Below are positions 2,260-35,314 of a stretch of DNA of 64,000 nucleotides, one piece after another (position 1 is the first letter of the stretch; each line of letters begins with the position of its first letter). Source of the DNA: Rheinheimera sp. (lineage in GTDB: Bacteria > Pseudomonadota > Gammaproteobacteria > Enterobacterales > Alteromonadaceae); the NCBI RefSeq assembly GCF_030690345.1, contig NZ_JAUYGV010000008.1:622433-686432 (forward strand), written 5' to 3'. The notes under the pieces were generated by a model. That model had not been told where the DNA came from. It did not search any database and saw only the letters and a list, made by a program, of their open reading frames with translations. The translations under genes and the position numbers were made by a program.

Positions 2260-3741
2260 TCACCCTTGCGCCGGTTGCAGCTGAATAAATACCGGATTAC
2301 TGTAAAACCATAAGTCATGCCAGGGGTTCTCACCTTCGGCATCGGCTTCGGGTTCCAGCTCATCTTTGTTATTACTGCCGCGCAGGCGCAGGTAACCGCT
2401 TTGGCTGACTTTACCCAGCGCCAGCTCAAACGTGCGGTAACCCTGTTTAGTTTGCCAGTCGCCGACATAAAAACGTTTTGCCACTTTGGTATCGGGCGCT
2501 TCATCGCTACTGCGGTGTTGCACCGGCCCGCTGATTACCCCCTGTATCACATCTACCCGCTGCACCTGCGGCATAAAACCGCCGCCATTAGGTCCCTCAG
2601 GATCGCTGAATCGTACACGCAGTACTAACTCATCTTCAGCCGACACAAGCAGAGTCTCACCTAAGGTGGCCTTTTTATCGGTATTTTTTACCACCACGTC
2701 AACATAGAGGGCGTCAATTAAATCGCCGGTGCTGACAAACATATTGCCGGCTTTGAGTGCGGCAAAAATACTGTCGTAGTCTTTTTCAGCATAAACATAG
2801 GTTTTGGCATACTGCCCCGGCCAGAAATCGGCCCAGCCGTCAGTGTAATGGCCATGGCTGTCTGACACCCCGGTTACCCACCAGCGCCGGCCTTCGCTAA
2901 GCAGGCTGTCCCAGACACCGCCTAAGCGTGCTGTCATCTGATCATAACCGCCCAGTGTCGGGTAATGCGGGTACTCAGCACGAGTAGCATTGGCATCGAT
3001 ACTGCCATCCGGGTTTAATGTGGCGGCCTGATGGCCTTCAGCGCCGGTCATACCAATCACCACATCGGGTGCCGTATCTTGCCAGTCACGCAATTGTTGC
3101 GGGGTAATTTTATGATACTGACGAAAACCCGTGGCTAAACGCGAAGGATGATTTGCCAGCAGTAAGGGTTTATCCGGCAGCGCATCCATCGCTTTAAGCG
3201 CCAACAGCATAAAAGCATCTTCGGCCTTTTCCGGCCCGGGCGGTACACCCTGGCGGCCATTGTAACGGTGTTCTATCTGGTACAGCTGCTGCGCTTCGGT
3301 AGCACTGTACGGCATAATAAAACTGGCATGGCGGCCACCCGGGCTGTTACCCGGCACGTCAAACTCCATGCCGTAAAATTGCAGAATATCCGGTAAAGCT
3401 TTGCGCGACGCCAGCAGCTCCGGATAGGCCTGCTGCAGCGCTAATTTGGCACGGTTCGGCCCGCCGTGGTCTGTTATTACCATCCAGCTTAAGCCATAGT
3501 GCGCCGCCATTTGCGCATTCAACGAAATAGAATATTTGGCATCGCCGCCAATAATCGGCGCCGGCGGAAATACCGAGCTATCCCACTTTACGCTGTAATG
3601 GCTGTGCACATGGTGATCACCGGCCAGCCAGCTTTTGCTTTGCTTTGTATTCAGGTCTGTTTGCACTTGCTGGCAAGCTGTGACCAGCAAGGTCACAATA
3701 GCAGCTAAGCCCAACTGCTTTTTATTCACTACAAAATTCAT
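2260..3741 (-). CDS. PHP-fold metallohydrolase lipoprotein (CehA/McbA-like)
   Basis: A 493-residue protein with a lipoprotein signal (LLVTACQ, Cys23), so probably membrane-anchored in the periplasm or outer membrane. The mature part opens with GDHHVHSHYS (residues 41-50), the metal-binding HxH-type motif of the PHP superfamily. Further PHP-like His/Asp clusters follow: VITDHGG, LLANHPSR and VSDSHGHYTDG. These match the CehA/McbA family, known for carbaryl hydrolysis and for maturation in microcin synthesis, but here the substrate is unknown. The C-terminal 120 residues look like a beta-rich accessory domain. It follows the TonB-dependent receptor in the same orientation, separated by a palindromic element, so the two may act on one imported or surface substrate (inference). 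Confidence 0.75.
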   Translation of the reverse strand: MNFVVNKKQLGLAAIVTLLVTACQQVQTDLNTKQSKSWLAGDHHVHSHYSVKWDSSVFPPAPIIGGDAKYSISLNAQMAAHYGLSWMVITDHGGPNRAKLALQQAYPELLASRKALPDILQFYGMEFDVPGNSPGGRHASFIMPYSATEAQQLYQIEHRYNGRQGVPPGPEKAEDAFMLLALKAMDALPDKPLLLANHPSRLATGFRQYHKITPQQLRDWQDTAPDVVIGMTGAEGHQAATLNPDGSIDANATRAEYPHYPTLGGYDQMTARLGGVWDSLLSEGRRWWVTGVSDSHGHYTDGWADFWPGQYAKTYVYAEKDYDSIFAALKAGNMFVSTGDLIDALYVDVVVKNTDKKATLGETLLVSAEDELVLRVRFSDPEGPNGGGFMPQVQRVDVIQGVISGPVQHRSSDEAPDTKVAKRFYVGDWQTKQGYRTFELALGKVSQSGYLRLRGSNNKDELEPEADAEGENPWHDLWFYSNPVFIQLQPAQG

Positions 3742-3772: not shown

Positions 3773-3898
3773 TATACCCAAAGTAATTGGTGCTGCAGCG
3801 AGGCGGCAAGTGCTTGAGGCCCCGGGAGCATAGTTAACCTATGTGACCGGGGCGAGAGTACGCAGCCAACAAAGCTGCAGCTTCAAGTACGAGGGTAT
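3773..3898. repeat. Long imperfect inverted repeat (REP/MITE-like element)
   Basis: About 126 bases that fold back on themselves. The outer arms begin ATACCC and end GGGTAT, each followed inward by the self-complementary GCTGCAGC. Next comes a GC-rich stem, GCCCCGG (3819-3825) with CCGGGGC (3847-3853), and an inner CATAG/CTATG pair around a short loop. No reading frame fills it. It starts 31 bases past the PHP lipoprotein start codon and ends next to the receptor stop codon. It may terminate or stabilise the receptor transcript. I believe related palindromes occur between genes in Alteromonadales-like genomes, but that is recollection, not something shown here. Confidence 0.7.
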
Positions 3899-3900
3899 GA

Positions 3901-6603
3901 TCAGAACTGTACTGTTACGCCAGCCATATAAGTACGTCCACTGTAAGTGGTGTTGTACGCTCTGTTACTGGAATCGCTATACAACTCATCGCGCACATTG
4001 GTCAGGTTTATCGCTTCCAGGTTTAGCTTTATGTTGTCAGTTAAACGATAAAAGGCGGAGAAATCGACGTTAGTCGTGGCATGGTAGCCACGCTCGTCAT
4101 CGTCAATAGAGCCGCTTTCTACTCCGGTGATGTAATCACTGCGATAAGCCGCAGCAATCCGGGCACCCCAGCTTGCTGTTTCGTAATACAGCGTCAGGTT
4201 GTAGCTCTGTTTTGATAACCCCGGGAAGGCTTTAAACTGATCTTCACCTGAGTTTTCTACGTTGCGATACAAGGTATTAGCGTCGGCCCAGGTGTAGTTT
4301 GCTATCACACCGAGGTTATTAAACGGCGCCGGCAAAAAGTCGAGATCACGCTGCAGCGCCAGCTCAAAACCCTTGATGGTAGAAGAGTCTGAGTTTTGCG
4401 GTGACGACACGTTAAAAATATCGTCTACCGTTTTACCCACCGGCAACAGCGCAGCCGGTAAGCCCAACTCGCGATAGACTATTTGCCGGGTTTCAGTAAC
4501 GATAAAGTTGTCGATATCTTTATAAAATAACGCGACCGACGCCAGGCCAACATCTTCAAAGTACCACTCCAGCGCGGTATCAAAGTTGGTTGATTCAAAA
4601 GGTTGCAGGTTCGGGTTACCGACAGAAACCTGGCCGATATCGTTTTCGCCCAGCGAGGTTTGGCTAACATTGGCCGAAAATGCCATGGCGCCTAACGACG
4701 GTCGCGTCATATTTTTACTGATACCGGTACGCCAGATCACATCATCGATAAACTCATAGGCAATGTTCAGGCTGGGCAGATAGTCAGAATAATCGCGCAC
4801 CAACTGCGTGGGCACGCCTTTCGATAAGCCTGCGGAGGTGATCTCAGTATTAAAATAACGCACGCCCAGGTTCAACCGCAGCGGCGCACCGGCTACATCA
4901 TATTCAGTGTCATACAGCAAATAAGCCGCCTGAGTTTCTTCGGTTAAATCATAGGCCGAGCTTTCTACCGTGTACTCGTCGGTTAAAGCAAAATTGCTCA
5001 GGCCGTAAAATGCCTGCAACGCCGCCATATCACCCTGCAACCAGCTTTTATCCGGATGGCCGCTAAACAGCTGCGCCTGCTCTGCTGTCAGCGTAAATAC
5101 GCCCTGATTTTGTGGTGTGTCGGGGTTAGTCGGAAAGTTTTGCGCTACCCGCTGAAAGCCGGAGTTGCTGAACTTTTTATAGTTGGCACCAAATTTCAAC
5201 GCCGAGCTGTCGGTTAAGTAGTAGTCAAAATCCAGCCTGGCGTTATCAAAGTCGGAGTAGATAAAATTCGACTGAAAGTACAAATCTTTTACCGTGTAAC
5301 CTTCGACAGCGGTAACATCAAAATCCGGTGAATAGCTGTGGCCGTAGAACGCATCTTGGGTAAAGTCGGTAATAATATTGACCTTTTTCTTCGCTTCAAT
5401 ATTCAGCTTATTTACCCGCGGCTGCTCATAATCTGATGAGCTGTGGCCCAGCATGGCGCGCATTTTCAGCGTATCGCTCAGCGTCCAGTCGGCTGTCAGG
5501 CTAATTTGGTTAAATACTGATTCGTTATAGTCCTGACGGTTTTCATTACGCCAGGTGGCGTTTTCATAATCGGCGTAAATCACCTCCTTGTCGCCGTTAT
5601 TTTCGCGCCACACTAATTCATTCACCACGCTGTTATCTTTTACCGCGTGATGATGCTCAGACAGGGTGTTTTCCAGCTTGCCATGCATCAAATCCAGCAC
5701 CAGGCTGAAATCCTGGCCGGGTTTATATTGCAGCGCCGCTGTAACACCCAGCCGCTTTTGCTCATTTTCCCACATTGAATAACGGTGGCCGCGCGGGAAC
5801 CATAATTCCCCGGAATCCAGTTCAGCTTGTAATTCTGTATTGCTGGCATCGGCGGCCGTTTTGCCACCTTCACGCCGCCAGCGGGTGGTGTTGGTGCCAT
5901 ATTCCATCGTTTCTCTGTCGCTGTAAGCAACGGATACCAGAGCACCAAAGTCCGACCAGGTGTTTGACAATAACCCCGCAATCCGCGGATCGGTACTGTC
6001 GGTGTTACTGTTGGTACCCAGCTGGGCAGATACCGCGGCCTGAGCGCCGTCATAGTCAAAAGGTTTGGCGGTGCGTAAGTTTACGGTACCGGCAATGCCG
6101 CCTTCTTCCTGATCGGCCGAGTAAGATTTTTTCACATCAATCTGGTTAAACAGCTCAGAGGCGAAAATATTAAAATCAAAGGCCCGGCTACGTGACACCC
6201 CGCCACGCGCATCCATTGGCGATGACGATGTACCCAGCGCTTCCATACCGTTTACCTGCACCCGGGTAAAATCCGGGCCCAGGCCGCGCAAAGAAATCTG
6301 CCGGCCTTCGCCGCCTTCACGGGTAATGGTTACGCCGGGCACCCGCTGCAGGGAGTCGGCCAGGTTTAAATCCGGGAAGTCGGCAATGTCTTCAGCCACT
6401 ATCGAATCCTGCGCTATCATCGCTTCGCGTTTTAAGTCTTTTGCTTTGATAATGGCGCTGCGAAAGCCCTTTACTTCAATTACTTCGGTTTCTGCTACCG
6501 TTTCTGCCGGGGCAGATTGGGCCAGCAGAGGATTGCTGCATAAAGCCGGAATTGCAGCCAGTACAGCCAACGCCAGATGGCTCTTGCAAAGATTCGTCTT
6601 CAT
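3901..6603 (-). CDS. TonB-dependent outer-membrane receptor, no signalling domain
   Basis: A 900-residue receptor with a signal peptide cleaved near LLAQSAPA, a TonB-box-like TEVIEVKGF (about residue 40), a plug domain (about residues 60-175, with DSLQRVPGVTITREGGEGRQ, ISLRGLGPDFTRVQVNGME and EEGGIAGTVNLRTAKPFDY), and a 22-strand barrel ending in Phe (MAGVTVQF). This is the type often grouped as TonB-dependent receptors of carbohydrates or peptides in Xanthomonas/Caulobacter-like bacteria; the ligand is not known. It is clearly a paralogue of the receptor at 8561-11608: plug and barrel align almost throughout, and DNA identity at the 3' ends looks near 80 percent by eye. It lacks the extra N-terminal STN domain of that paralogue, so it should transport without signalling. 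Confidence 0.93.
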   Translation of the reverse strand: MKTNLCKSHLALAVLAAIPALCSNPLLAQSAPAETVAETEVIEVKGFRSAIIKAKDLKREAMIAQDSIVAEDIADFPDLNLADSLQRVPGVTITREGGEGRQISLRGLGPDFTRVQVNGMEALGTSSSPMDARGGVSRSRAFDFNIFASELFNQIDVKKSYSADQEEGGIAGTVNLRTAKPFDYDGAQAAVSAQLGTNSNTDSTDPRIAGLLSNTWSDFGALVSVAYSDRETMEYGTNTTRWRREGGKTAADASNTELQAELDSGELWFPRGHRYSMWENEQKRLGVTAALQYKPGQDFSLVLDLMHGKLENTLSEHHHAVKDNSVVNELVWRENNGDKEVIYADYENATWRNENRQDYNESVFNQISLTADWTLSDTLKMRAMLGHSSSDYEQPRVNKLNIEAKKKVNIITDFTQDAFYGHSYSPDFDVTAVEGYTVKDLYFQSNFIYSDFDNARLDFDYYLTDSSALKFGANYKKFSNSGFQRVAQNFPTNPDTPQNQGVFTLTAEQAQLFSGHPDKSWLQGDMAALQAFYGLSNFALTDEYTVESSAYDLTEETQAAYLLYDTEYDVAGAPLRLNLGVRYFNTEITSAGLSKGVPTQLVRDYSDYLPSLNIAYEFIDDVIWRTGISKNMTRPSLGAMAFSANVSQTSLGENDIGQVSVGNPNLQPFESTNFDTALEWYFEDVGLASVALFYKDIDNFIVTETRQIVYRELGLPAALLPVGKTVDDIFNVSSPQNSDSSTIKGFELALQRDLDFLPAPFNNLGVIANYTWADANTLYRNVENSGEDQFKAFPGLSKQSYNLTLYYETASWGARIAAAYRSDYITGVESGSIDDDERGYHATTNVDFSAFYRLTDNIKLNLEAINLTNVRDELYSDSSNRAYNTTYSGRTYMAGVTVQF

Positions 6604-19430: not shown

Positions 19431-19850
19431 TTAACTGCCGGTACGGCGGCGCAAATGCATTTGCATCGCCAACTCGTCCTGTTGCTTTTGTTCGCGGCGC
19501 TGCTGTTGTAACTGCTGACGCTGCTGGCGCTGTTGCAGCAACTGTTCTATCGCCAGATTGTAGGCAGCCTGCTTATTACAGGCCTGTTGCTGCGTCGCCG
19601 CTTCCTGCTCTGCCAGCGCACTGCGCTGCTGCTGCTCTGCTGCCAGGTCATGCATAATATGCTTTAAGCCGGATAAGTTCTGCAGGCTTAAACTGCAGAG
19701 CATTTGCTGATTATTCTCCAGGCTGCCGATATGCTGTGCCAGTAAATGGCTGCGCTGCTGCTCCTGCCCGGCCAGTTGTTGCAACCGGCTGTGCCGGCTG
19801 CGCATCGCATCGAAGTTATCTTGTTGTGTTTGCAGATATTTTTTAAGCAT
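19431..19850 (-). CDS. fliJ: FliJ, flagellar export chaperone/stalk protein (lateral)
   Basis: A 139-residue, Gln-rich, highly charged coiled-coil protein with no hydrophobic segment, the form expected of FliJ, the central stalk of the FliHIJ export ATPase. Sequence is poorly conserved in this family, so the call rests on length, coiled-coil character and position: last gene of motY-lafK-fliEFGHIJ, overlapping the fliI stop by eight bases. No clear terminator follows. Confidence 0.85.
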   Translation of the reverse strand: MLKKYLQTQQDNFDAMRSRHSRLQQLAGQEQQRSHLLAQHIGSLENNQQMLCSLSLQNLSGLKHIMHDLAAEQQQRSALAEQEAATQQQACNKQAAYNLAIEQLLQQRQQRQQLQQQRREQKQQDELAMQMHLRRRTGS

Positions 19851-21171
19851 GCTGCGTCACCAAAGTTGCTAACTGTTGTTCGGTTTCGGCAAAATCAACT
19901 TGCTGATTTAAGCCCTGACAAAGAAATTGCTCAATTTTCGGATACAGCGCTACCGCCCTGTCCAGCTCGGTATCACGCCCGGCCTGGTAAGCGCCAAGCG
20001 GGATCAGCTCCTGCACCTGCTGATAACGGCTATACAAGCGCTTTAAGCTGTAACAGCTTTTCAGCTGCTGCTCAGAGACAATATTCGGCATCACCCGGCT
20101 GATAGAAGCGCCGATATCAATCGCCGGATAATGGCCACGCTCGGCCAGCTCGCGGCTTAATACCACGTGGCCGTCTAAAATAGCGCGGGCAGCGTCGGCT
20201 ATCGGGTCCTGCTGATCGTCACCTTCGGCCAGTACGGTATAAATGGCGGTCATGCTGCCACTGCTGTCATTGCTGTTGCCGGCACGCTCTACTAACTGGG
20301 TTAACTTGCTGAACACCGACGGCGGATAACCGCGGGTGGCCGGCGGCTCGCCGACCGACAGCGCAATTTCGCGTTGCGCCTGAGCATAGCGGGTTAGCGA
20401 GTCAACCAGTAACAACACATGCAGGCCCTGGTCACGAAACCAGGCGGCCAAACGGTGCGCCAGCTCTGCACTGCGCATCCGCAGCAGCGGTGATTGATCC
20501 GCCGGTGCCGCTACCACTATGGCTTTTTTCATGCCATCCGGGCCCAGGCTGTGTTCTATAAAATCTTTTACTTCCCAGCCGCGCTCGCCTACCAGGCCAA
20601 CTATCACCACGTCTGCCGCAGTAAAGCGTGTCATCATGCCAAGCAGTTTACTTTTACCCACGCCGGAGCCGGCAAATAGCCCCAGCCGCTGGCCCCGGCC
20701 GACAGTAAATAAGCCGTTGATGGCTTTAATACCGACATCCAGCGGCGTGGTAACGCCTTTTTTCTGCATTGGATTCACCGCCGCCAGTTGCGCGGAAATA
20801 TGCTCACCTTTGACTAAGGCCGGACCACCATCCAGCGGCTGCATTAAGCCATCCACCACGCGGCCGAGTAAGGCATGGCTCACGGTTAACGCCTGATCAT
20901 GGGTTAACGGCCGCACTTTGGCGCCGGTGGTCAGGGCGCTGGCATCCGTTAACGGCATTAAAAACGCCTGGTCGCGATCAAAGCCGACGACTTCGGCTTC
21001 AATCCAGCGGCCATTGTGACCTTCCACCTGATAACGCTGGCCCAGCGTGTACTGGCCACCGGCCACGGTTAAGATCATGCCGTTTACCCGCACCAGGGTG
21101 CCAAAGCTCTGGCACAGCGGGCCGGGCTGCAGTTGCTCTGCCGCCTGCTGCAGACGCTTAAGCACTGACAT
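19843..21171 (-). CDS. fliI: FliI, flagellar type III export ATPase (lateral)
   Basis: A 442-residue ATPase related to the F1 beta subunit. Walker A is GSGVGKS (168-174). Later come the Walker B strand HVLLLVDSLTRYAQAQREIAL and the FliI-specific GEPPATRGYPPSVFSKL. FliI energises delivery of export substrates to the FlhAB gate together with FliH and FliJ. The start overlaps the fliH 3' end by 14 bases and the stop overlaps fliJ. Confidence 0.97.
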   Translation of the reverse strand: MSVLKRLQQAAEQLQPGPLCQSFGTLVRVNGMILTVAGGQYTLGQRYQVEGHNGRWIEAEVVGFDRDQAFLMPLTDASALTTGAKVRPLTHDQALTVSHALLGRVVDGLMQPLDGGPALVKGEHISAQLAAVNPMQKKGVTTPLDVGIKAINGLFTVGRGQRLGLFAGSGVGKSKLLGMMTRFTAADVVIVGLVGERGWEVKDFIEHSLGPDGMKKAIVVAAPADQSPLLRMRSAELAHRLAAWFRDQGLHVLLLVDSLTRYAQAQREIALSVGEPPATRGYPPSVFSKLTQLVERAGNSNDSSGSMTAIYTVLAEGDDQQDPIADAARAILDGHVVLSRELAERGHYPAIDIGASISRVMPNIVSEQQLKSCYSLKRLYSRYQQVQELIPLGAYQAGRDTELDRAVALYPKIEQFLCQGLNQQVDFAETEQQLATLVTQHA

Positions 21172-21796
21172 CGTCGGCGGCCTGTAATTGCTGTTGCACC
21201 TGCGGCAACATGGCGGTTAAACGCTGGCGAAAATCCACCAGATGCAGTTGCGCCGCGCCAACAAAGGCTGCACTACCCGGTGCCAGGCCGTGGTCTGCCT
21301 GGAGTTGCACTTCGCCCAGCGCGATAACATCTAACTGTTGCCACACTGCCCAGTCTTGTGGCGCTAAGCGCACTGCGCTTATCTGCTCATTAACCTGCAG
21401 CAGCGGTAGCAGGCTGTTGACCGCCTGCTGCAAATGCGCTGGCTGCAAGCTGAGTTCGGCTTCCAGCGTGCTTTGTGCCAGTTGGCTTACCAGCTCGAAT
21501 ACACCCAGCGCCAATTGTTGTTCCTGTTGCTGCTGTTGCCCGGTCAGTTGCTGCTGTAACTGCGTTAACTGCTGCTCAAACTGCTGGCGCAATGCGCGTA
21601 CCGCCTGCTTTAACTGTTCTTCGGCCCCGGCCTGCGCTTGCTGCTGAGCAAGTTGCTGCGCCTGTTGTTTGCCCTCTTCAGCGCCCAGCCGCTTGCCATC
21701 CGTTAAGCCACGCTCATACGCCAGCTGCAGTTGCTGTTCAATGCTCTGCTGTGACAGATCACGCTGTACACCGGGAAAACGATACGGGTCCGCCAT
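21158..21796 (-). CDS. fliH: FliH, negative regulator/stator of FliI (lateral)
   Basis: A 212-residue protein with a Gln/Ala-rich central coiled coil (about residues 35-100) and a C-terminal domain resembling the FliH/V-ATPase E-subunit region (LQADHGLAPGSAAFVGAAQLHLVDFRQRL). It tethers FliI to FliN at the C-ring. It starts three bases after the fliG stop codon. The low-complexity middle is normal for this family. Confidence 0.9.
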   Translation of the reverse strand: MADPYRFPGVQRDLSQQSIEQQLQLAYERGLTDGKRLGAEEGKQQAQQLAQQQAQAGAEEQLKQAVRALRQQFEQQLTQLQQQLTGQQQQQEQQLALGVFELVSQLAQSTLEAELSLQPAHLQQAVNSLLPLLQVNEQISAVRLAPQDWAVWQQLDVIALGEVQLQADHGLAPGSAAFVGAAQLHLVDFRQRLTAMLPQVQQQLQAADDVSA

Positions 21797-21799
21797 AAA

Positions 21800-22819
21800 T
21801 TACCCCAGGGTCGCCTCTTCGTATAAGCGGTAGTCCACTTCACCTTTGGCCATCATCTGGCGGATCATTTGCATAATCTCAGCGCGGGCTGATTCTACCT
21901 TGGTGACGGTTTGCGCCTTGGTGCCTTCAATTTGCTGGCGGTAAACCTGGGCCAGACGTTTTGGTAACGCAGCCATAATGTTGTTCAGCAGTTCCGGCTC
22001 GCAGCCTTTTAATGCCACTACCCAGAGCTCGTCCGGAATTTCGTTCAGCAGATAAGCCAGTACATCTTCGCTTTGCCGTGCCAGCGAGCCAAAATCGTAC
22101 ATTTTGTCCTGTACCGCTTCGGCCGTTACCGCATTGTGCTGCTTTAACAAATCCATAATCTCGGCTTTATTACCGCTGTAACGGTTCATGATTTCCGCCA
22201 CTTTTTCCACGCCGTTAACCCGGGCGCCTACCTGCTCGCCAACAAAGGCAATACAGGCTTCCAACGTGTGGCGTAAATCGTCCATCACGTGCTCGCTGAC
22301 TTCGCGCAGGCTGGCAATACGGTACAAAATGTCGTCATGCTTCTGCTTGGGAAACAACGAAATAACCGCGGATGCCTGCTCTGCCGGTAAAAACGCCAGC
22401 AGCAAGGCCTGCATCTGAATATGTTCCTGCTCTAAAAAGCGCGCCAGCAGTTCTGCCGGTACCCATTCCAGCCGGCGAATGTCATCGGCCAGGGCGCCGC
22501 CGTAGATATCGTCCAGCATGCCGCGCGCTAGTTTGCGGCCTACGGCCCGGTCCAGTGCCCGCTCCAGATAAACCCGCGATGCACCACTAACGCCGCTTTC
22601 GTTGCGGTAGCAGTCAAAAAAATCCTGCAGGATCAGCGCGACATCGTCCTGGGTAACATTGGCAATTTTTGCCATCCGCTCAGACAGCGCCTTTACCTCC
22701 TGCCGGTTTAATTTTTTAATGATGCCGGCGGCGTTCTCTTCGCCCATGCTCAGCAACAAAATGGCCGCCCGATCCAGGTCGGTAATGGTGCGGCCGGCTT
22801 CAGACCTTAGTTGATTCAA
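21800..22819 (-). CDS. fliG: FliG, flagellar motor switch protein (lateral)
   Basis: A 339-residue protein with the three FliG domains: N-terminal FliF-binding (about 10-100), middle (about 115-190, where EHIQMQALLLAFLPAEQASAV carries the EHPQT-like motif in altered form), and C-terminal torque domain (about 200-335; MYDFGSLARQSEDVLAYLLNEIP). The charged ridge that contacts MotA is in the last part (KVESARAEIMQMIRQM). The gene overlaps the fliF 3' end by 20 bases. Confidence 0.95.
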   Translation of the reverse strand: MNQLRSEAGRTITDLDRAAILLLSMGEENAAGIIKKLNRQEVKALSERMAKIANVTQDDVALILQDFFDCYRNESGVSGASRVYLERALDRAVGRKLARGMLDDIYGGALADDIRRLEWVPAELLARFLEQEHIQMQALLLAFLPAEQASAVISLFPKQKHDDILYRIASLREVSEHVMDDLRHTLEACIAFVGEQVGARVNGVEKVAEIMNRYSGNKAEIMDLLKQHNAVTAEAVQDKMYDFGSLARQSEDVLAYLLNEIPDELWVVALKGCEPELLNNIMAALPKRLAQVYRQQIEGTKAQTVTKVESARAEIMQMIRQMMAKGEVDYRLYEEATLG

Positions 22820-24533
22820 TGCTGACTCCCCGCTCTACCCAATATTTAATCACTGCCGTTACCCGCTCAGATTCTTTGCTGGCTAACAGCTGCATATGCG
22901 TAATTTGCTCGGCAAACTCAGAGCCAACCTGGGGTAAATTAATGGCATTAAAGCCCGGCTGCGGCATGGCGCTGCTGTCTGCAGCGACAATGTCATCTGC
23001 ATCAGCACTGCGCTTAGTTGTGCTTTGCGCTGACAGCGCGGCTACCGCGGCATCGCTATCTTCGCCATACAGCGCATCCGGCTCTGCAGCGCGCTGCTTT
23101 TTGCCGCTAACCAGGTGATTAACCAGCGGCCGCACACCAAACAGGATCAACGCCAAACCAATTAAGCTGGCAAACAGGTAACGGGCATACTCTTTGACTT
23201 CCGGCAGTTGCCACCATGGCAAGCCGGCCAGCGGTGCACCAACCGGCGCGGCCGCAACAAAACCAAAGCTGGTGATATTAAACTGATCGCCGCGCTCAGC
23301 CTGAAAGCCGGTGGCGGTTTTGACCATGTCACCCAGTTGCTGCAATTGCGCCTGAGTCCAGCCGGCGTCACCGGCAGCACCTTCGTTTACCAGTACCGAC
23401 ACACTCATCGACTTTAACCGGCCCACTTCAAACCGCGTGTGGGTAACGGCACGGCCGCTATCAAACTGCCGGCTGCTTTCATTGCGCTCTGAGGTACGCT
23501 GATTATTGTCTTCGGCTTGTTGATCGGCCGGTAACGGTGGTTGGTTGGCCAATGCGCCCGGAATACCCATCGCCAGTTGGTCCAGCATGGTATCGGTTTT
23601 GATGGATTCAGACCGCACCACAGAGTCCGGGTCTATTGCCTCGCGGGTTTCTTCTACCACACTGAAATCAACATCTGATGACACCTGAATGCGGTAGTTA
23701 CCATCACCTAAAATCGGCAACAGCATAATAGAAGCGCGCTGTTCGATATTGCGTTCCAGCTTTTGCACAAAGGCCAGCTTTTTATCGGTTTCTTTACCTA
23801 CCGGTGTCTCGTCGTACAATTCACCGGTCAGCAGTTTACCGCGCTGGTCCACTACCGATATTTTGCGCGGGTCTAAACCCGGCACACTGCCGGCAATCAG
23901 GCTGACAATGGCTTCTACCTGGTTTGGCTTTAGCTCGTAGCCCGGGGCTAAATCAACCATCACTGAAGCGGCAGATTTCTCTTCCTGGCGGCCAACAAAT
24001 AAATTGCGTTTTGGCACTGCCAAATGCACGCGGCTGTTGCGAATGCCGTCCATGGTAATAATGGTGCGGGCCAGCTCACCTTCCAGCGCATGCTGGTACT
24101 GCATAGACTCCATAAACTGGCTGGTACCCATAGTGACTTTTTCACCTATGGTTGACAGCCCTTCCGGCATCGCCGCTTTAATGCCGCGCGCGGCCAGCGT
24201 AATACGCGCATCCGCTAAACGGTCTTGCGGCACCATAATGTTGCCGCTGTCGGTGTCGATACGAAACGCCACCTTTTCTTTATCCAGGATCTCCAGAATA
24301 CCGGCTTTGTCGTAGTGCTCCTGGTTGCCATACAACGGCACATAGTTTTTTGCCGAGGTCCACAGGATCAGCACTATAGTCGCCGCCACCAGGGTTGCCA
24401 GCAGCGCAATAGACGCTATGCTGCGATCACCGCCCGGTAACCAGCTGAACCGGTTAGACAAATTAATGACTTTCTCCCGAAAGTTGCCCTCGATACTGAC
24501 CGGGGGCATAGTTTTAACCACTTCGCCTTTCAT
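22800..24533 (-). CDS. fliF: FliF, flagellar MS-ring protein (lateral)
   Basis: A 577-residue protein with membrane segments near residues 40-60 and 450-470, flanking a large periplasmic ring-building domain. Its YscJ/FliF part includes LVPLYGNQEHYDKAGI-like sequence near residue 65 and LARTIITMDGIRNSRVHLAVP further on. The C-terminal tail (ITHMQLLASKESERVTAVIKYWV) is the FliG-binding helix pair. AAGGA precedes the ATG at 24533, eleven bases after the fliE stop. Confidence 0.97.
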   Translation of the reverse strand: MKGEVVKTMPPVSIEGNFREKVINLSNRFSWLPGGDRSIASIALLATLVAATIVLILWTSAKNYVPLYGNQEHYDKAGILEILDKEKVAFRIDTDSGNIMVPQDRLADARITLAARGIKAAMPEGLSTIGEKVTMGTSQFMESMQYQHALEGELARTIITMDGIRNSRVHLAVPKRNLFVGRQEEKSAASVMVDLAPGYELKPNQVEAIVSLIAGSVPGLDPRKISVVDQRGKLLTGELYDETPVGKETDKKLAFVQKLERNIEQRASIMLLPILGDGNYRIQVSSDVDFSVVEETREAIDPDSVVRSESIKTDTMLDQLAMGIPGALANQPPLPADQQAEDNNQRTSERNESSRQFDSGRAVTHTRFEVGRLKSMSVSVLVNEGAAGDAGWTQAQLQQLGDMVKTATGFQAERGDQFNITSFGFVAAAPVGAPLAGLPWWQLPEVKEYARYLFASLIGLALILFGVRPLVNHLVSGKKQRAAEPDALYGEDSDAAVAALSAQSTTKRSADADDIVAADSSAMPQPGFNAINLPQVGSEFAEQITHMQLLASKESERVTAVIKYWVERGVSIESTKV

Positions 24534-24543
24534 TGCATTGTCC

Positions 24544-24861
24544 TTACAGTGACATTCGCATCACGTCATCAATGCCGCTCAGTACCTTGTTGCGTACCTG
24601 CATCAGCATGGAGAAACTTAAATCCGCTTTCTGGCTGGCTACCATGGCGCCAACCACATCGTCACTACGGCCGGTATCGACTGCCGTCATCAGATCGGCA
24701 GAGATATTTTGCTGCTGGTTCACCGAGCGGATAACCTGGCTAAAATCACTGCTGATGCCGCTATCGTTGCTGGCCGGAGCAATCTGTTCGCTGCCGGCAA
24801 CCTGTTGCATCCGGGTCATCATTTGCAGCATCTGGCTCTGACTGTCTATTGGTGAAATCAT
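24544..24861 (-). CDS. fliE: FliE, MS-ring/rod junction protein (lateral)
   Basis: A 105-residue protein whose C-terminal half (SFSMLMQVRNKVLSGIDDVMRMSL) is the FliE signature that forms the base of the rod with FlgB. The N terminus is variable and helical. It is exported by the flagellar apparatus without a Sec signal. It follows lafK by 11 bases in the same operon. Confidence 0.94.
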   Translation of the reverse strand: MISPIDSQSQMLQMMTRMQQVAGSEQIAPASNDSGISSDFSQVIRSVNQQQNISADLMTAVDTGRSDDVVGAMVASQKADLSFSMLMQVRNKVLSGIDDVMRMSL

Positions 24862-24872
24862 ACTGGTTATCC

Positions 24873-26189
24873 TTAAGAAGCTAATGCGTCTATGTCGACA
24901 CCATGCTCGCGCATGGCAGCTATTTTGTAACGCAAAGCGCGGGTGCTGACACCCAACGCCTGCGCCGTGCGGGTACGGTGGCCGTTAAACTTATTCAGTA
25001 CATTTAAAATGTAATCAAATTCGGCATCTTTCTTACTTTGCTTGAGCAAGCTGGCGCAAATTGCCGCCGCTTGCGGGTGGCACTGCGGTAAATTTAAATC
25101 GGCTATTTGCAGTTCAATACCACGCGCCATCACTAAAGCACGCTGCATAATGTTTTCCAGCTCGCGTACATTGCCCGGCCAGTTGTATTGCAACATCACA
25201 TCGGCCGCACCACGGCTTAAGCGGTATTTGCCGTTGCCGTACTTATTAATAAAGAACTCTGCCAGTGGCAAAATATCGTCGCGCCGCTCGCGCAGCGCCG
25301 GCCAGCTCAGTGGCAACACATCCAGCCGGTAGAATAAATCTTCGCGGAACTGGCCTTGCTCTACCTGGCTGCGCAGGTTCTTGTTGCTGGCAGCAATCAC
25401 GCGAATATCCAGCTTAATGCGGCTGTTGCTGCCCAGTCGTTCTACTTCACGCTCCTGCAATACCCGCAGCAATTTGGCCTGCAGCGCCAGTGGCAACTCA
25501 GATATTTCATCGAGCAAAATAGTGCCGCCGTTGGCCGCTTCAAACTTACCAATCTGTTGGTTTACCGCACCGGTAAAAGCACCTTTGTTGTGGCCAAATA
25601 ACATGGCCTCCAGCATATGCTCCGGAATAGCGGCACAGTTCACGGCAATAAACGGCTTGTCAGCACGATCTGAGGCCTGATGAATAAACTGCGCCAGCCG
25701 CTCTTTGCCGGTGCCCGACTCACCGAGGATCAGCACGCTGGCTTCGGTTTGCGCAGCGCGGTTAGCCAACTGCAGGATCTGCCGGCTGGCGTGCGATACC
25801 GCTACCAAATCTTTTAAGCCGCGGCTCATCGCACTGGCATTACGGATTGAAGTTTTTAACTGCGAGCAGAAAAAAGGCTTTAGTAAATAATCAATTGCGC
25901 CGCTTTGTAAGGTATCGGACGCCAACGCGCTTTGATCGTTACCGACCATACTGATAATTTGCGCTGCCGGCAGCTTGCGGCACACCAGGCTAACCAGGTC
26001 CGGTAACGCCATTTGCGGCAGGTCGCAGTCAATAAAGGCCAGCGCCGGTTGGTAGTCATGGCACAGGCCGACAATCCCGGTAACATCGGCAGTGTGCAGC
26101 AGCTGATAACCTTCGCTTTGGATACATTGGCGTACTTCAGCATCAGGCTGTTGCGGCGCTATCCACAGTACATAAGCAGCATTTTTCAT
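24873..26189 (-). CDS. lafK: LafK, sigma-54-dependent lateral flagellar master activator
   Basis: A 438-residue enhancer-binding protein. The N-terminal receiver-like domain (1-115) keeps Asp54 and Lys104, but the acidic pair after strand 1 is replaced (IAPQQP). Phosphorylation is therefore unlikely and the domain is FleQ/FlrA-like. The AAA+ domain has Walker A GESGTGKE (156-163), the sigma-54 loop GAFTGA (203-208) and Walker [10 protein letters not shown] (221-229). A Fis-type helix-turn-helix ends the protein ([23 protein letters not shown]). In V. parahaemolyticus LafK drives the early lateral genes. The gene overlaps the motY stop, and its leader carries a c-di-GMP riboswitch. Likely targets are the sigma-54 promoters before flgB and fliT. 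Confidence 0.93.
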
Positions 26190-27061
26190 TATTCGGCCTC
26201 CTGCTGAGTGCCGCTACGGACTAACCGCACTGATACGCGGCGGTTAGCTTGCTCCGGCTTACCCTGGCTGTTCAACAGCGGATAACGGTTACCATGAGCA
26301 CGGATTTCTAACTTAGACGCACTCACGCCCAACTCAATTAACTGCGCGGCAACTTCATCAGCCCTCTCCTGCGACAGCAGGCGGTTAGCCAATACAGTGC
26401 CGACATCATCGGTATGACCATCAATAAGAATTTTGCTGACAGAGCTATCCAGTTGCAGATAGCGCGCCAGTTTTTGCAGCTGTGGCAGCTGTTGCCGTGT
26501 CAGGGTGCGCTGGCCATCAGCAAACTGAATTTCACTGTCTCTGGCCTGTTGCCAGGATAACGGTGACATTTGTGCCACACAGCCACGAAACTGCTCAACC
26601 GCGCCGGAACCGCTGACACTGGTAAGCAGTATTTGTTGCTTATGTTGTTTGTCACTCAGCTCAAATTGCAGCCAGTTACCAAACTGAATTTGCTGTAGTA
26701 AAGGCAAGGCACCTGCGATAAAGCTTACTTTGCTATCGTGATATAGCTCGGCGCTGTAGGGGAAATCTGCTGTGGCTGTCGCGGCGCCGGGTTGCCAATC
26801 GGCAGGTCGGGCGGCCACATTGGCTTGCGCTAAGGCATAGTAAGGTTGGGCTAATGCCAGATCCAAGCGCAGTGAATGGCCCGGTTCTGCCAGAAAGCTG
26901 ACATCACCCACGCCATTAACCACCTGCTGTAACCGACAATGAAAAGCGCTGCTGTGCAACTGCCAGTCTGCCTGTTCTGCCGGTTGCACCAGCAACGCAG
27001 CCGCCAGTGCACCGCCGGCGGCAGAGGCACTAAGCCAGAGACTCAGAGATAACAATGACAC
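26189..27061 (-). CDS. motY: MotY-like stator-associated T-ring protein (lateral)
   Basis: A 290-residue exported protein. The N-terminal half contains [20 protein letters not shown], matching the MotY N-terminal domain that binds the basal body. The C-terminal half (about 165-285) is an OmpA-like peptidoglycan-binding domain with [12 protein letters not shown] and NRRVSVRL. MotY forms part of the ring that holds stators in Vibrio polar and lateral motors. The start is a GTG at 27059-27061 with AAGGA seven bases upstream. It is the first gene after a long structured leader that includes a c-di-GMP riboswitch. Confidence 0.88.
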
Positions 27062-27089
27062 ATCAATATCCTTTTAATTAACCACAACC

Positions 27090-27108
27090 GTTACTGCCGG
27101 GCAGTAAC
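27090..27108 (-). other. Perfect 9-bp hairpin in the motY leader
   Basis: GTTACTGCC (27090-27098) and its complement GGCAGTAAC (27100-27108) flank one base. No T tract follows on the minus strand, and the motY ribosome binding site lies about 15 bases further. It may be part of the riboswitch expression platform or a protein site; role not established. Confidence 0.5.
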
Positions 27109-27212
27109 ACCAAAAGTTGAAGAAAATAAAAGGAAAACCGCATAGAAAGCGCTCTGTTCTGACACGGACAGCCGTGCAGGCAGAGGCATACCCGAAGGAT
27201 GCCGCTAAGCTA

Positions 27213-27300
27213 ATGCAACCCCGCTATCGTAGCGTTTTTTAACAAAACGTCGTAGACCGGAGGCTTTGCGTCCTGCCCTTTCGGTGCAGTTTGCCTTTTA
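27213..27300 (-). ncRNA. Cyclic di-GMP-I (GEMM-I) riboswitch
   Basis: On the minus strand the sequence contains the GEMM-I core in order. GGCAAACTGC comes first, then a helix closed by a GAAA tetraloop (CTGC-ACCGAAAGG-GCAG). The hallmark GGACGCAAAGCCTCCGG follows (27257-27273), then a second helix (CGTTTT with AAAACG), and AGCGGGGTTGC (27215-27225) closes the aptamer. These conserved blocks and their spacing match class I c-di-GMP aptamers. The aptamer lies about 150 bases before motY-lafK-fliEFGHIJ. Downstream are a UUCG-type hairpin (27185-27203) and a CACGG/CCGTG hairpin (27163-27176), but no clear intrinsic terminator, so whether ligand turns expression on or off cannot be read. Confidence 0.92.
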
Positions 27301-27313
27301 ATTGTCTTAACCT

Positions 27314-27342
27314 GTTCATAAAAAGCTATGCTATTTATGAAC
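27314..27342. promoter_or_regulatory. 9-bp inverted repeat upstream of the riboswitch
   Basis: GTTCATAAA (27314-27322) and TTTATGAAC (27334-27342) flank an 11-base spacer. Arm length, spacing and position just downstream of a candidate promoter suggest a repressor or activator operator for motY-lafK; it could instead be an RNA stem in the leader. Confidence 0.4.
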
Positions 27343-27361
27343 TGAAACTGAATAAATTAAA

Positions 27362-27389
27362 AGATAACTAAATTAGCACTGCAAGGCAA
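27362..27389 (-). promoter_or_regulatory. Candidate sigma-70 promoter of motY-lafK
   Basis: On the minus strand TTGCCT (27384-27389), a 16-base spacer and TTATCT (27362-27367) would start RNA near 27355, about 55 bases before the riboswitch. Both hexamers are imperfect. The surrounding 27360-27540 stretch is AT-rich and noncoding and includes the AAGATCT/AGATCTT repeat at 27404-27421. Confidence 0.35.
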
Positions 27390-33036: not shown

Positions 33037-33914
33037 TACTCCCGGGTGACGATATCAGTGATTTGGAACACCAGGCTGTTGGCTTCTTCTGCTACTTTGC
33101 CGAAAAACAGCCGTTCTTTGTTCAGTTGCAGCGACATAGCGCTGTGTAATTCAATCGGCAGCACGGCGCCGTCAAGGCATTCCCGTAACTGGCGCAGGCT
33201 AACTTTTTTCCGTGCCATTTCAATGCGGCACAGTACCGGCACCTGCGGCCATTGCGCCACATCAACAGCCGGTAGCTGCACCTTGCTGTCGCTGTCGTCC
33301 TGCTCAACAAAAAAGGCCAACGGCAGCCACAGGTACCAACTGATGGCTTCGCTATCGAGTACCAGCCGCACTTTTAACGGTAAGTACTGAAACTTCGCCG
33401 GCTCCAACTGCTGTTTCACTGCCGTAGCCGGCAGCGCAGATTGCTCTTTAAACAGTAACTGCTGCATTGCCAGTAACTGACGCTGCGCCACCCGGCCGCA
33501 TACCCGCAGTTCGGACGCGCTCAGTTCAGTTTTATCTTCGGTTGGCAGCACTTTGCTCAGTTGGCCACCCAGGGCTAAATCGGCCAGGTGATGCACACCG
33601 GTGAAATCCAGCGCAAAAAAACAGTAGCCGTCGGTCGGTACCAGTACCGGGCATTGCAACAACAAGCGGCCGGGCTCTGCCAGCCAGCTGTCCAGCCCGG
33701 TGCCCTGGCACAGGTTCATCTCAATACTGAACTCGACATCGTGCAGCAGCCGGCCCAACTCAATTTCTACCGCCTGTGCCAGCTCCGGCAGCCGCTGTTT
33801 CGCCGCCAGTAAGGCTTTACTGAAGCGACGTTGGTCCAGCGTCAGCGCAAACGGCTGACAAGCTGTGGCCGAAGCCGCAGGGATAATGCTTGAACGTATG
33901 GTCATATTATTCAT
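33036..33914 (-). CDS. fliM: FliM, C-ring switch protein (lateral), without CheY-binding N terminus
   Basis: A 292-residue FliM. The middle domain (about 45-215) and C-terminal SPOA domain (about 220-290; VPVLCRIEMARKKVSLRQLREC, LFFGKVAEEANSLVFQI) are present. The N terminus (MNNMTIRSSIIPAASATACQ) lacks the LSQxEIDALL motif by which FliM of polar and enteric motors binds phosphorylated CheY, and the protein is about 35-40 residues shorter than E. coli FliM. Switching may therefore be absent or controlled otherwise; the preceding gene encodes a PilZ protein. The start overlaps that gene by eight bases. Confidence 0.92.
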   Translation of the reverse strand: MNNMTIRSSIIPAASATACQPFALTLDQRRFSKALLAAKQRLPELAQAVEIELGRLLHDVEFSIEMNLCQGTGLDSWLAEPGRLLLQCPVLVPTDGYCFFALDFTGVHHLADLALGGQLSKVLPTEDKTELSASELRVCGRVAQRQLLAMQQLLFKEQSALPATAVKQQLEPAKFQYLPLKVRLVLDSEAISWYLWLPLAFFVEQDDSDSKVQLPAVDVAQWPQVPVLCRIEMARKKVSLRQLRECLDGAVLPIELHSAMSLQLNKERLFFGKVAEEANSLVFQITDIVTRE

Positions 33915-34326
33915 CTGCTGTTGCGTGTTGTGTCGTACCGCTGTCTCGCGACACGCGGTAAGCTTTTTTACTTAAGCGACGGAGTAAATTCAGTCGTTGC
34001 TCGCGTTTGGCATCTAACCAACTCAGGCCAAGAAACACTAACTTGTCACTGACCTGGCGGCGGTACACTACTTCGGCTTTAATCCGCGTTTGCCCGTCGT
34101 ACTGCACTACAATCAGATCCGGCACCGTTTTACTGACCGGCGCCAACAAGCCGGCACCGCCCAAACTCATATCCTTGACCACCGCCAAACAAATCTGGCT
34201 GCCAAACAAGCCGGTTTGCAACAGCTTTACCGGCACACCTTTGGTTTGGCTTTCATGTGGCTCGTTAGCGGTACAGAAGTACCAACGCAAATACTTGCGC
34301 GAAATATCCGGCTTAGTTAATGGCAT
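33907..34326 (-). CDS. PilZ-domain c-di-GMP-binding protein in the motor operon
   Basis: A 139-residue protein from the ATG at 34324-34326; an in-frame GTG at 34377 would add 17 residues inside motB. It has both parts of the PilZ c-di-GMP site: RKYLR (residues 10-14, RxxxR) and DMSLGG (52-57, DxSxxG), followed by beta strands typical of the barrel (DLIVVQYDGQTRIKAEVVYRR). The C terminus is basic (RLNLLRRLSKKAYR). It is not fused to a YcgR N-terminal domain. Position between motB and fliM, overlapping both, points to a c-di-GMP-dependent effect on the stator or C-ring, analogous to the YcgR brake but not proven. Confidence 0.87.
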   Translation of the reverse strand: MPLTKPDISRKYLRWYFCTANEPHESQTKGVPVKLLQTGLFGSQICLAVVKDMSLGGAGLLAPVSKTVPDLIVVQYDGQTRIKAEVVYRRQVSDKLVFLGLSWLDAKREQRLNLLRRLSKKAYRVSRDSGTTQHATADE

Positions 34327-35314
34327 CTTGCACCTGTACGCCTGAGCGGCCGACCGGTTGATTACGTTGTGCTTCACGGGCAGCTTGCTGTACGGCGTTA
34401 TTATTATTGTCAGGGGAAAACAGTTGGTTCAGCTCCGCTTCGGCGGCGCTGGTTAAAATCAGCAGTTCAATGCGGCGGTTTTCACTGCTGCCCTGGTCTG
34501 CTTCGTTCAGTGGCCGCGTAGCAGAAAATGCCGCCACCTGGGCTACGCGCTGCACCGGCATACCACCGGCGGCCAATACCTGGCGGGCTTGCAACGCCCG
34601 GTCACCGGACAACTCCCAGTTACTGTATTGGCTACCGCTGAATGCAGTAATGTCGGTATGGCCGGAAATAATCAGTTTGTTCTGCACTTTAACGAACACC
34701 GGCCCCAGGCTTAGCAGCAGATCTTCAAAAAACGGTGTCATACGGATTTGGCCACGGACAAACATCTGCCGATCTTTGCTGTCACGGATAATCACCCGTA
34801 AGCCGGACGGCACTATATCCAACTGAATATGGCCCTGGGCCATTTGCTCTGCGGCCAGTTGTTCAAATGCCTGCAGCAATAAGCTCAGCTGCTCCGGCGT
34901 ATCAAACTGGCCGTCTACCAGCGAGTTCAGCTTATCGCCTTTGCCGGCCAAAGGCCTCTCATCACCGGACGGTACCTGCAGGTATTCCGCCATCCCCGGC
35001 AAGGGGTTATCCGGTGGCAACATATTGGCCGAATTTTTATCCACTACCGATGGCGTGCCGCCCAAGTTCACCGGGAACGGGCTGTTTTCCGGATCAAACG
35101 GGTGCGGGCTGCCATCAAAAATGGAATGGGTGCGCATATAGTTGGCAATCTCGGTGCGCTCTTTCACGTTGGATACTTCCAAAATCCACAGCACCATAAA
35201 AAAAGCCATCATTGCCAGGGTAAAGTCGGCAAAAGCTACCTTCCAGGCGCCGCCGGCTTTGGTTTTACCAGCCGCTCGCGGACCACGCTTAACTATTATC
35301 GGCGTACTGTTCAT
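34313..35314 (-). CDS. lafU: MotB-type stator protein (LafU)
   Basis: A 333-residue protein with one membrane helix carrying the proton-binding Asp30 (FADFTLAMMAFFMVLWIL), a linker with the plug region, and an OmpA-like peptidoglycan-binding domain (about 185-300; KLIISGHTDITAF, NRRIELLIL). The helix resembles the proton-driven E. coli MotB, consistent with lateral motors. It pairs with MotA, overlaps its stop by one base, and overlaps the pilZ gene downstream. Confidence 0.94.
   Translation of the reverse strand: MNSTPIIVKRGPRAAGKTKAGGAWKVAFADFTLAMMAFFMVLWILEVSNVKERTEIANYMRTHSIFDGSPHPFDPENSPFPVNLGGTPSVVDKNSANMLPPDNPLPGMAEYLQVPSGDERPLAGKGDKLNSLVDGQFDTPEQLSLLLQAFEQLAAEQMAQGHIQLDIVPSGLRVIIRDSKDRQMFVRGQIRMTPFFEDLLLSLGPVFVKVQNKLIISGHTDITAFSGSQYSNWELSGDRALQARQVLAAGGMPVQRVAQVAAFSATRPLNEADQGSSENRRIELLILTSAAEAELNQLFSPDNNNNAVQQAAREAQRNQPVGRSGVQVQDAIN

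Follow-up and report, generated by a model that had tools for sequence, protein, structure and literature searches.

The window examined here, a 64,000-nucleotide stretch of Rheinheimera sp. DNA, carries on its minus strand a c-di-GMP-I riboswitch aptamer that probably belongs to the 5′ leader of the motY-lafK-fliEFGHIJ operon and most likely serves as a translational OFF switch, a reading to which we assign a probability of roughly 0.6. The results computed for it are (i) the aptamer itself, (ii) its conservation, (iii) its covariation, (iv) its fixed place before lateral motY or lafK, (v) its absence at the other motY loci tested, and (vi) a modelled energy shift at the motY Shine–Dalgarno (SD) sequence. 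The features of the locus are listed below in the order of transcription.

27361..27389 (-): putative sigma70-like promoter, TTGCCT (27389-27384), 17 nt, TATCTT (27366-27361), drawn by eye
27314..27342 (-): 5′ leader hairpin GTTCATAAA...TTTATGAAC directly before P1, drawn by eye, similar in the window's genus
27204..27311 (-): full aptamer with extended P1 (GTTAAG 27311-27306 and CTTAGC 27209-27204), from P1 covariation in 19 sequences
27210..27304 (-): Rfam aptamer core (RF03167, 59.4 bits; RF01051, 68.9 bits)
27294..27303 (-): aptamer 5′ strand AATTAAAAGG, which includes G20-G21 and is a 10-base copy of the motY SD region (identical 10-mer at 27079-27070)
27185..27203 (-): spacer hairpin GGCATCC-TTCG-GGTATGCC, from folding
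27153..27184 (-): spacer stem-loop TCTGCC...CAGAACAGA, from folding
27125..27144 (-): switching strand TATGCGGTTTTCCTTTTATT, complementary to the 5′ half UUAAAAGGCAAACUGCA of the aptamer, from folding; nearly invariant in 10 leaders of the genus
27090..27108 (-): 19-base palindrome GTTACTGCCCGGCAGTAAC between anti-SD and SD, a hairpin inside the loop joining them
27068..27079 (-): motY SD region AATTAAAAGGAT, with the SD AAGGAT at 27073-27068, read from the sequence
26189..27061 (-): motY, an ORF with a GTG start and MotY_N and OmpA domains (Pfam)
24873..26189 (-): lafK, an ORF with receiver, sigma54 activator, and Fis-type helix-turn-helix domains (Pfam); its ATG overlaps the motY stop (TAATG)
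19431..24861 (-): remainder of the operon, fliE to fliJ, from ORFs, with FliE identified by domain

Identity, fold, and operon context of the aptamer

A cmscan of the whole 64 kb against 4227 Rfam families returns a sole match at the gathering threshold, at 27304-27210 on the minus strand, to RF03167 (c-di-GMP-I-GGC), with a marginal score of 59.4 bits against a cut-off of 59 (E 1.7e-11). RF01051, the plain c-di-GMP-I family, scores higher there, reaching 68.9 bits with a cut-off of 35 (E 3.4e-13 at genome scale); this covariance check had been named by the first-pass annotation and is significant. All three GEMM-I core blocks that the annotation had reported are present in the order and on the strand it gave, and its bounds of 27213..27300 are off by 3 and 4 bases from the ends of the Rfam match. 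The P1 helix extends past these bounds, to about 27311 and 27204. RF03167 was considered as a distinct ligand class and set aside, since most relatives are reported as RF01051 (23 of the 29 family loci, with RF03167 in six) and the pocket bases are the common ones. Judged from sequence, the element is confirmed as a c-di-GMP-I riboswitch aptamer and is predicted to bind its ligand.

The ligand-contacting positions in Vc2 numbering, G20, A47, and C92 (C92 was set by context, the numbering being one off there), are all present in the window aptamer. Across 78 aligned matches, two of which are non-lateral (L002 and L003), these bases occur in 75, 78, and 76, respectively. G20 presumably marks a c-di-GMP pocket and A20 a cGAMP-type (GEMM-Ib) pocket. 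The GEMM-Ib/cGAMP riboswitches of Geobacter have the same fold; the window pocket base is G20, but A20, absent from the window, is present in three of the 78 matches. These three lie in lateral leaders, at 1226-1344 of L071, 1221-1346 of L077, and 3773-3890 of L091. An RF01051 search of the 4.35-Mb genome gives three matches, the window aptamer included. The other two lie upstream of a lipoprotein-like ORF (L002, 1501-1596) and of a 123-residue exported protein (L003, 1501-1593), both described from their translations.

Covariation was assessed over 26 pairs in a MAFFT alignment of 19 of the 29 family aptamers, with the P1 pairs picked by eye. Of all cells, 92.3% are paired, and both-side changes occur in 14 of the 26 pairs; none of 500 shuffles reaches either value, and slid-structure controls leave only 27-47% of cells paired. 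In P1, drawn past the Rfam boundary, 7 of the 9 pairs change on both sides and 81.8% of cells are paired. The count of additional pair types in the same 19 aptamers is not beyond shuffles (54/500). A three-helix junction P1/P2/P3 with covariation is present, with both-side changes in the three varying helices.

The gene order, from motY through lafK to fliE onward, agrees with the earlier description by ORF coordinates and domains; the gene names beyond FliE, as far as fliJ, are those we take from the translations. Upstream on the same strand lies flhA, named from its translation, which ends at 27644, and a second FlhA, 49% identical, is encoded elsewhere in the genome, so that two flagellar systems are present. 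The two FlhA proteins, the domains of LafK, and its grouping with lateral LafK on the tree place the operon in a lateral LafK system. The putative sigma70-like boxes would put the transcript start near 27354. By eye, the window's genus has similar boxes at this position, as do L066, L067, L071, and L077; a consensus promoter scan (9 of 12 needed) does not have the boxes at 27389-27361 among its output.

Distribution and descent

Matches to RF03167 occur at least once in 120 of 196 family genomes and in none of 14 control genomes. A sample of 395 family genomes from a larger group yields 29 loci with lateral-type motY, defined by a score of at least 140 bits (the next lies at 99 bits), and each of the 29 has the aptamer upstream on its coding strand, with scores of 54.0-80.6 bits. 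L078-L081, at 54.0-54.9 bits and E 6e-10 or better, lie under the RF03167 gathering threshold of 59 and were found since the search went by E-value. Among 31 genomes of the genus, 10 have motY at 57-100% identity; in the remaining 21, full-length motY matches reach at most 29%, with some OmpA-domain-only matches up to 41%. The aptamer is found at 0 of 21 other motY loci, presumably polar (20 of the genus, searched at the gathering threshold, and L083). One family genome has two c-di-GMP-I-GGC matches 12 bases apart (G072:C4:92403-92595).

Beyond the family, 394 genomes of the order were searched with LafK, and the 39 best non-family genomes (38 above 400 bits and G423 at 371, with the next new genome, G702 at 367, left out) were taken for an RF01051 search. 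An aptamer lies upstream of lafK, on the same strand and within about 1.2 kb, in 24 of these 39 best-scoring genomes. The 15 others comprise five of f21, eight of f6 (in which G629 alone has an aptamer), G492, whose aptamer and lafK are on separate contigs, and G540, with a degenerate copy only (L099).

Named genomes were scanned with a lateral FliE profile, and the best 80 of 284 loci were searched with our own covariance model, R1, which finds 25 aptamers at 24 of these loci, all on the fliE strand and 1.5-2.7 kb upstream, where lafK or motY-lafK lies. Within these best 80 of 284 the carriers are all 15 Aeromonas (A. simiae weakly, at 34.7 bits), three Oceanimonas, Zobellella iuensis, an Oceanisphaera MAG, Marinobacter xestospongiae, an uncultured Aeromonadaceae (L143), an uncultured Alteromonadaceae, and a gammaproteobacterial MAG; the Vibrio, Photobacterium, Shewanella, Ferrimonas, and enterobacterial loci of the same best 80 have no aptamer. 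At gathering thresholds, Rfam confirms 12 of 13 carriers sampled from the 24, A. simiae L148 not being reported, and gives no RNA family for the 13 of 56 aptamer-less loci that were run through it. Five of the 56 (L133, L158, L163, L171, and L179) are weak negatives with less than 2.7 kb of sequence upstream of fliE. L143 has two tandem aptamers before lafK, at 3588-3705 and 3820-3936. Degenerate aptamers, at 34.7 bits and with C92 changed to G, occur at 3900-4016 of L148 (Aeromonas simiae) and 1103-1219 of L099 (G540). The tie that had been drawn between c-di-GMP and lateral flagella may hold for many relatives, in which the aptamer is conserved with G20, but would stop short of the Vibrio lateral loci examined, from which the aptamer is absent.

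A quick maximum-likelihood tree, built from 91 LafK sequences and drawn with a midpoint root, has one branch (SH-aLRT 89) that sets apart 43 rows, namely 40 that bear the aptamer, two weak ones, and the truncated L133. The other side holds the Vibrio, Photobacterium, Shewanella, Ferrimonas, Marinobacter nauticus, and enterobacterial rows, and three f21 rows group with Vibrio. The tree leaves out 18 of 109 candidate loci in which the pattern gave no LafK frame (10 Pseudomonas and the aptamer carriers L078, L079, L103, L106, L108, L129, L132, and L151), and the tree program flagged long branches, some carriers included, among them L082, L091, L124, and L143. LafK of G635 is identical to that of Aeromonas taiwanensis and LafK of G540 to that of A. 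simiae, on which grounds both genomes are assigned to Aeromonas. One aptamer origin with later decay in A. simiae would be the simplest reading, held with moderate confidence. The ancestor of one LafK lineage probably had the aptamer already, and its descendants kept it; the sequences downstream of the aptamer differ between genera.

Direction and mode of control

The aptamer 3′ end lies about 150 nt from the motY GTG (27061). The 3′ part of the switching strand, TCCTTTTATT (27134-27125), complements the motY SD region and is designated the anti-SD. In the whole-leader fold, the aptamer strand UUAAAAGGCAAACUGCA pairs with UGCGGUUUUCCUUUUA (27142-27127); in the fold without the aptamer, UUCCUUUUAUU pairs with the SD region. 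L043 retains the SD pairing through matched changes, CCUUUUAUUGC with GCAAUAAAAGG. Removal of the aptamer, a proxy for the ligand-locked state that involves no simulation of binding, makes the SD costlier to open, at 8.1 kcal/mol instead of 3.5, a shift of about 4.5; when the intervening leader is dinucleotide-shuffled 110 times, no shift is as large.

At high c-di-GMP, the aptamer would close and its 5′ strand would be locked into the ligand pocket, leaving the strand UCCUUUUAUU free to pair with the motY SD, AAUUAAAAGGA. The SD being masked, motY would not be translated, and lafK and the fli genes would be off by coupling or polarity. At low c-di-GMP, the switching strand would pair with the aptamer 5′ strand, a ten-letter match to the SD region, and the ribosome site would stay open. 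We infer the transcript start, ligand binding, control direction, and effect on LafK protein as parts of this scheme. The OFF direction is proposed for the window's lineage because the SD is more hidden without the aptamer in the energy model, by which a translational OFF switch there would be likely; the Oceanimonas-type and f15 leaders fall outside that call.

The gene lafK has its own SD, AGGAGG, so that masking of the motY SD need not silence LafK, and, given this SD and the overlap with motY, control of LafK in the window would need coupling or polarity. Among the Aeromonas loci no motY intervenes, and the aptamer precedes lafK itself. The claim of the first-pass annotation that c-di-GMP controls LafK directly accords with these positions before motY-lafK or lafK itself, but goes too far for the window, where the modelled target is the motY ribosome site.

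Of the 29 family leaders 27 have a positive SD shift, as have 24 of the other 38, many of these 67 leaders being near copies of one another (L097 and L128, with unmatched start codons, were left out). The positive leaders among the 38 are 17 of 19 Aeromonas, 2 of 10 Oceanimonas-type, 1 of 4 f15, 3 of 3 f2, and L091; L124 is negative. SD hiding is missing or reversed in 16 of the 67, namely L064, L065, three of the four f15, eight of the ten Oceanimonas-type, L124, and two of the nineteen Aeromonas leaders, and the Oceanimonas-type leaders have no clear SD. In the shuffle test of ten leaders, which were picked after the SD-shift signs of the 67 had been seen, the counts out of 110 are 0 for the window, L070, L067, and L103, 1 for L042, 2 for L043 and L071, and 10 for each of L036, L122, and L116.

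Complementarity between the aptamer and the switching strand is mildly beyond shuffles in the window (37/500), with 7 to 37/500 in the ten genus leaders; by this longer test, many other genera are not beyond shuffles (342, 310, and 444 of 500 for L065, L078, and L092, respectively). A short test of the 15-nt aptamer 5′ strand against the leader is not beyond shuffles in the window's genus (35/100 for the window) and is beyond them in five of seven g45 leaders (0-3/100) and in L124, L093, L108, and L134 (0-4/100). A forced-pair version of the SD test was dropped, its constraint costing 14-41 kcal/mol. A 21-codon reading frame at about 27143-27078, noticed by eye, was also rejected, as the frame looks unkept in relatives such as L039. 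The palindrome at 27090-27108 (-) could also be a protein site.

The same riboswitch might act on transcription, with ligand binding promoting termination, intrinsic or Rho-dependent, within the 150-nt stretch ahead of motY, as in Cd1, although this is unlikely. Nine of ten genus leaders (all but L042) fold a strong hairpin of -16 to -19 kcal/mol with a C/U-rich stretch after it; the region has two terminator-like sites where 0.7 would be expected, a weak one among them at 27109-27089; and the leaders without SD hiding (Oceanimonas type, f15) need another platform. In the window, however, no hairpin with a clean U run lies between the aptamer and the start codon, intrinsic terminators common to several genera or lineages are not seen in the leaders, and the SD-masking shift is strong. 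An ON switch, by which c-di-GMP would raise motY-lafK expression, for example in readying surface growth, is distinctly improbable. It fits the 16 of 67 leaders without positive SD hiding. The pilA1 riboswitch belongs to the other class and is no precedent here. GEMM-I ON switches do exist, pilM being described alongside the OFF switch Cd1 in the available text of PMC9262584, but in the window and 27 of the 29 family leaders removal of the aptamer leaves the SD more hidden, and raised c-di-GMP inhibits Aeromonas swarming (PMC5247445, available part).

That the aptamer is a decayed or inactive remnant carried along with the lateral cluster is very improbable indeed: the weak copies L148, below the Rfam cut-off, and L099 in G540, both at 34.7 bits with C92 changed to G, are precedents for such decay, but the three varying helices have both-side changes, the pocket bases are retained in nearly all matches, and the aptamer stands at 29 of 29 family loci. 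Around the translational OFF switch a wider picture may be drawn, tentatively and at somewhat less than even odds. One branch of lateral systems would have inherited the riboswitch as a built-in input to LafK, the window's lineage would use SD mimicry by the ligand-binding strand, with one switching strand choosing between the copies, the platform would be rebuilt in each genus, and the A20 lineages might respond to cGAMP.

Relation to known c-di-GMP inputs

The same aptamer class precedes tfoY in Vibrio cholerae, where Vc2 is a translational OFF switch with P1 as its key element (PMC9262584, available text) and, when bound, restricts tfoY translation (available parts of PMC7371385 and PMC9262584). 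The target of Vc2 is non-flagellar, and in the window it is the aptamer 5′ strand that copies the SD. Inuzuka 2018 reportedly names the masking of a distant ribosome site by Vc2 in its title. Cd1 of Clostridioides difficile, of the same class, precedes the early flagellar flgB operon and is OFF with c-di-GMP; unlike the scheme proposed here, it acts by transcription termination, and its target is the flgB structural operon rather than the sigma54-activator operon of a second flagellar system (PMC6366702, partial text).

The literature found, in the portions available, treats c-di-GMP control of lateral flagella and swarming as the work of proteins, namely PilZ proteins, transcription factors, and GGDEF/EAL enzymes. 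In Aeromonas, GGDEF overexpression inhibits lateral-flagella swarming and EAL overexpression has the opposite effect, with protein effectors named; the word riboswitch does not appear in the accessible text of that paper (PMC5247445), nor in that of reviews of Vibrio lateral control (PMC9303241) and motility suppression (PMC13432727). Within the searchable literature, in the text it offers, riboswitch and lafK co-occur only in PMC4406679, as unrelated table rows. The c-di-GMP riboswitches of A. hydrophila precede fimbrial and chitinase genes according to a review (PMC6366702, partial text), and an RNA regulon comparison assigns this class to polysaccharide degradation and mostly unknown functions, its discussion extending to motility, virulence, and biofilm (PMC3766115, partial text). 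The arrangement had been put forward as undescribed for a lateral system, and no description was found in the searchable, mostly non-subscription literature, though the supplements of the original motif papers may mention lafK. The riboswitch class is known, and its link to a lateral flagellar regulator across a whole lineage appears new within the literature searched. If the reading is true, a broad lineage including Aeromonas senses c-di-GMP directly on the lateral operon mRNA, and Vibrio, with its examined lateral loci lacking the element, is suggested to use another route.

FilZ and MotL, PilZ proteins of lateral clusters, are also c-di-GMP inputs and differ from the riboswitch in acting as proteins on motor or swimming activity, not on regulator synthesis (PMC10304486 and PMC8203827, in the parts available). 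The first-pass view that c-di-GMP acts here without a protein receptor is overstated, the same cluster having a PilZ protein. The PilZ-domain ORF, at 33907-34377 (-), adjoins motB and scores 28.1 bits against a cut-off of 22.5, with RxxxR and DxSxxG motifs seen by eye; it may be a FilZ/MotL-like second c-di-GMP input of this cluster.
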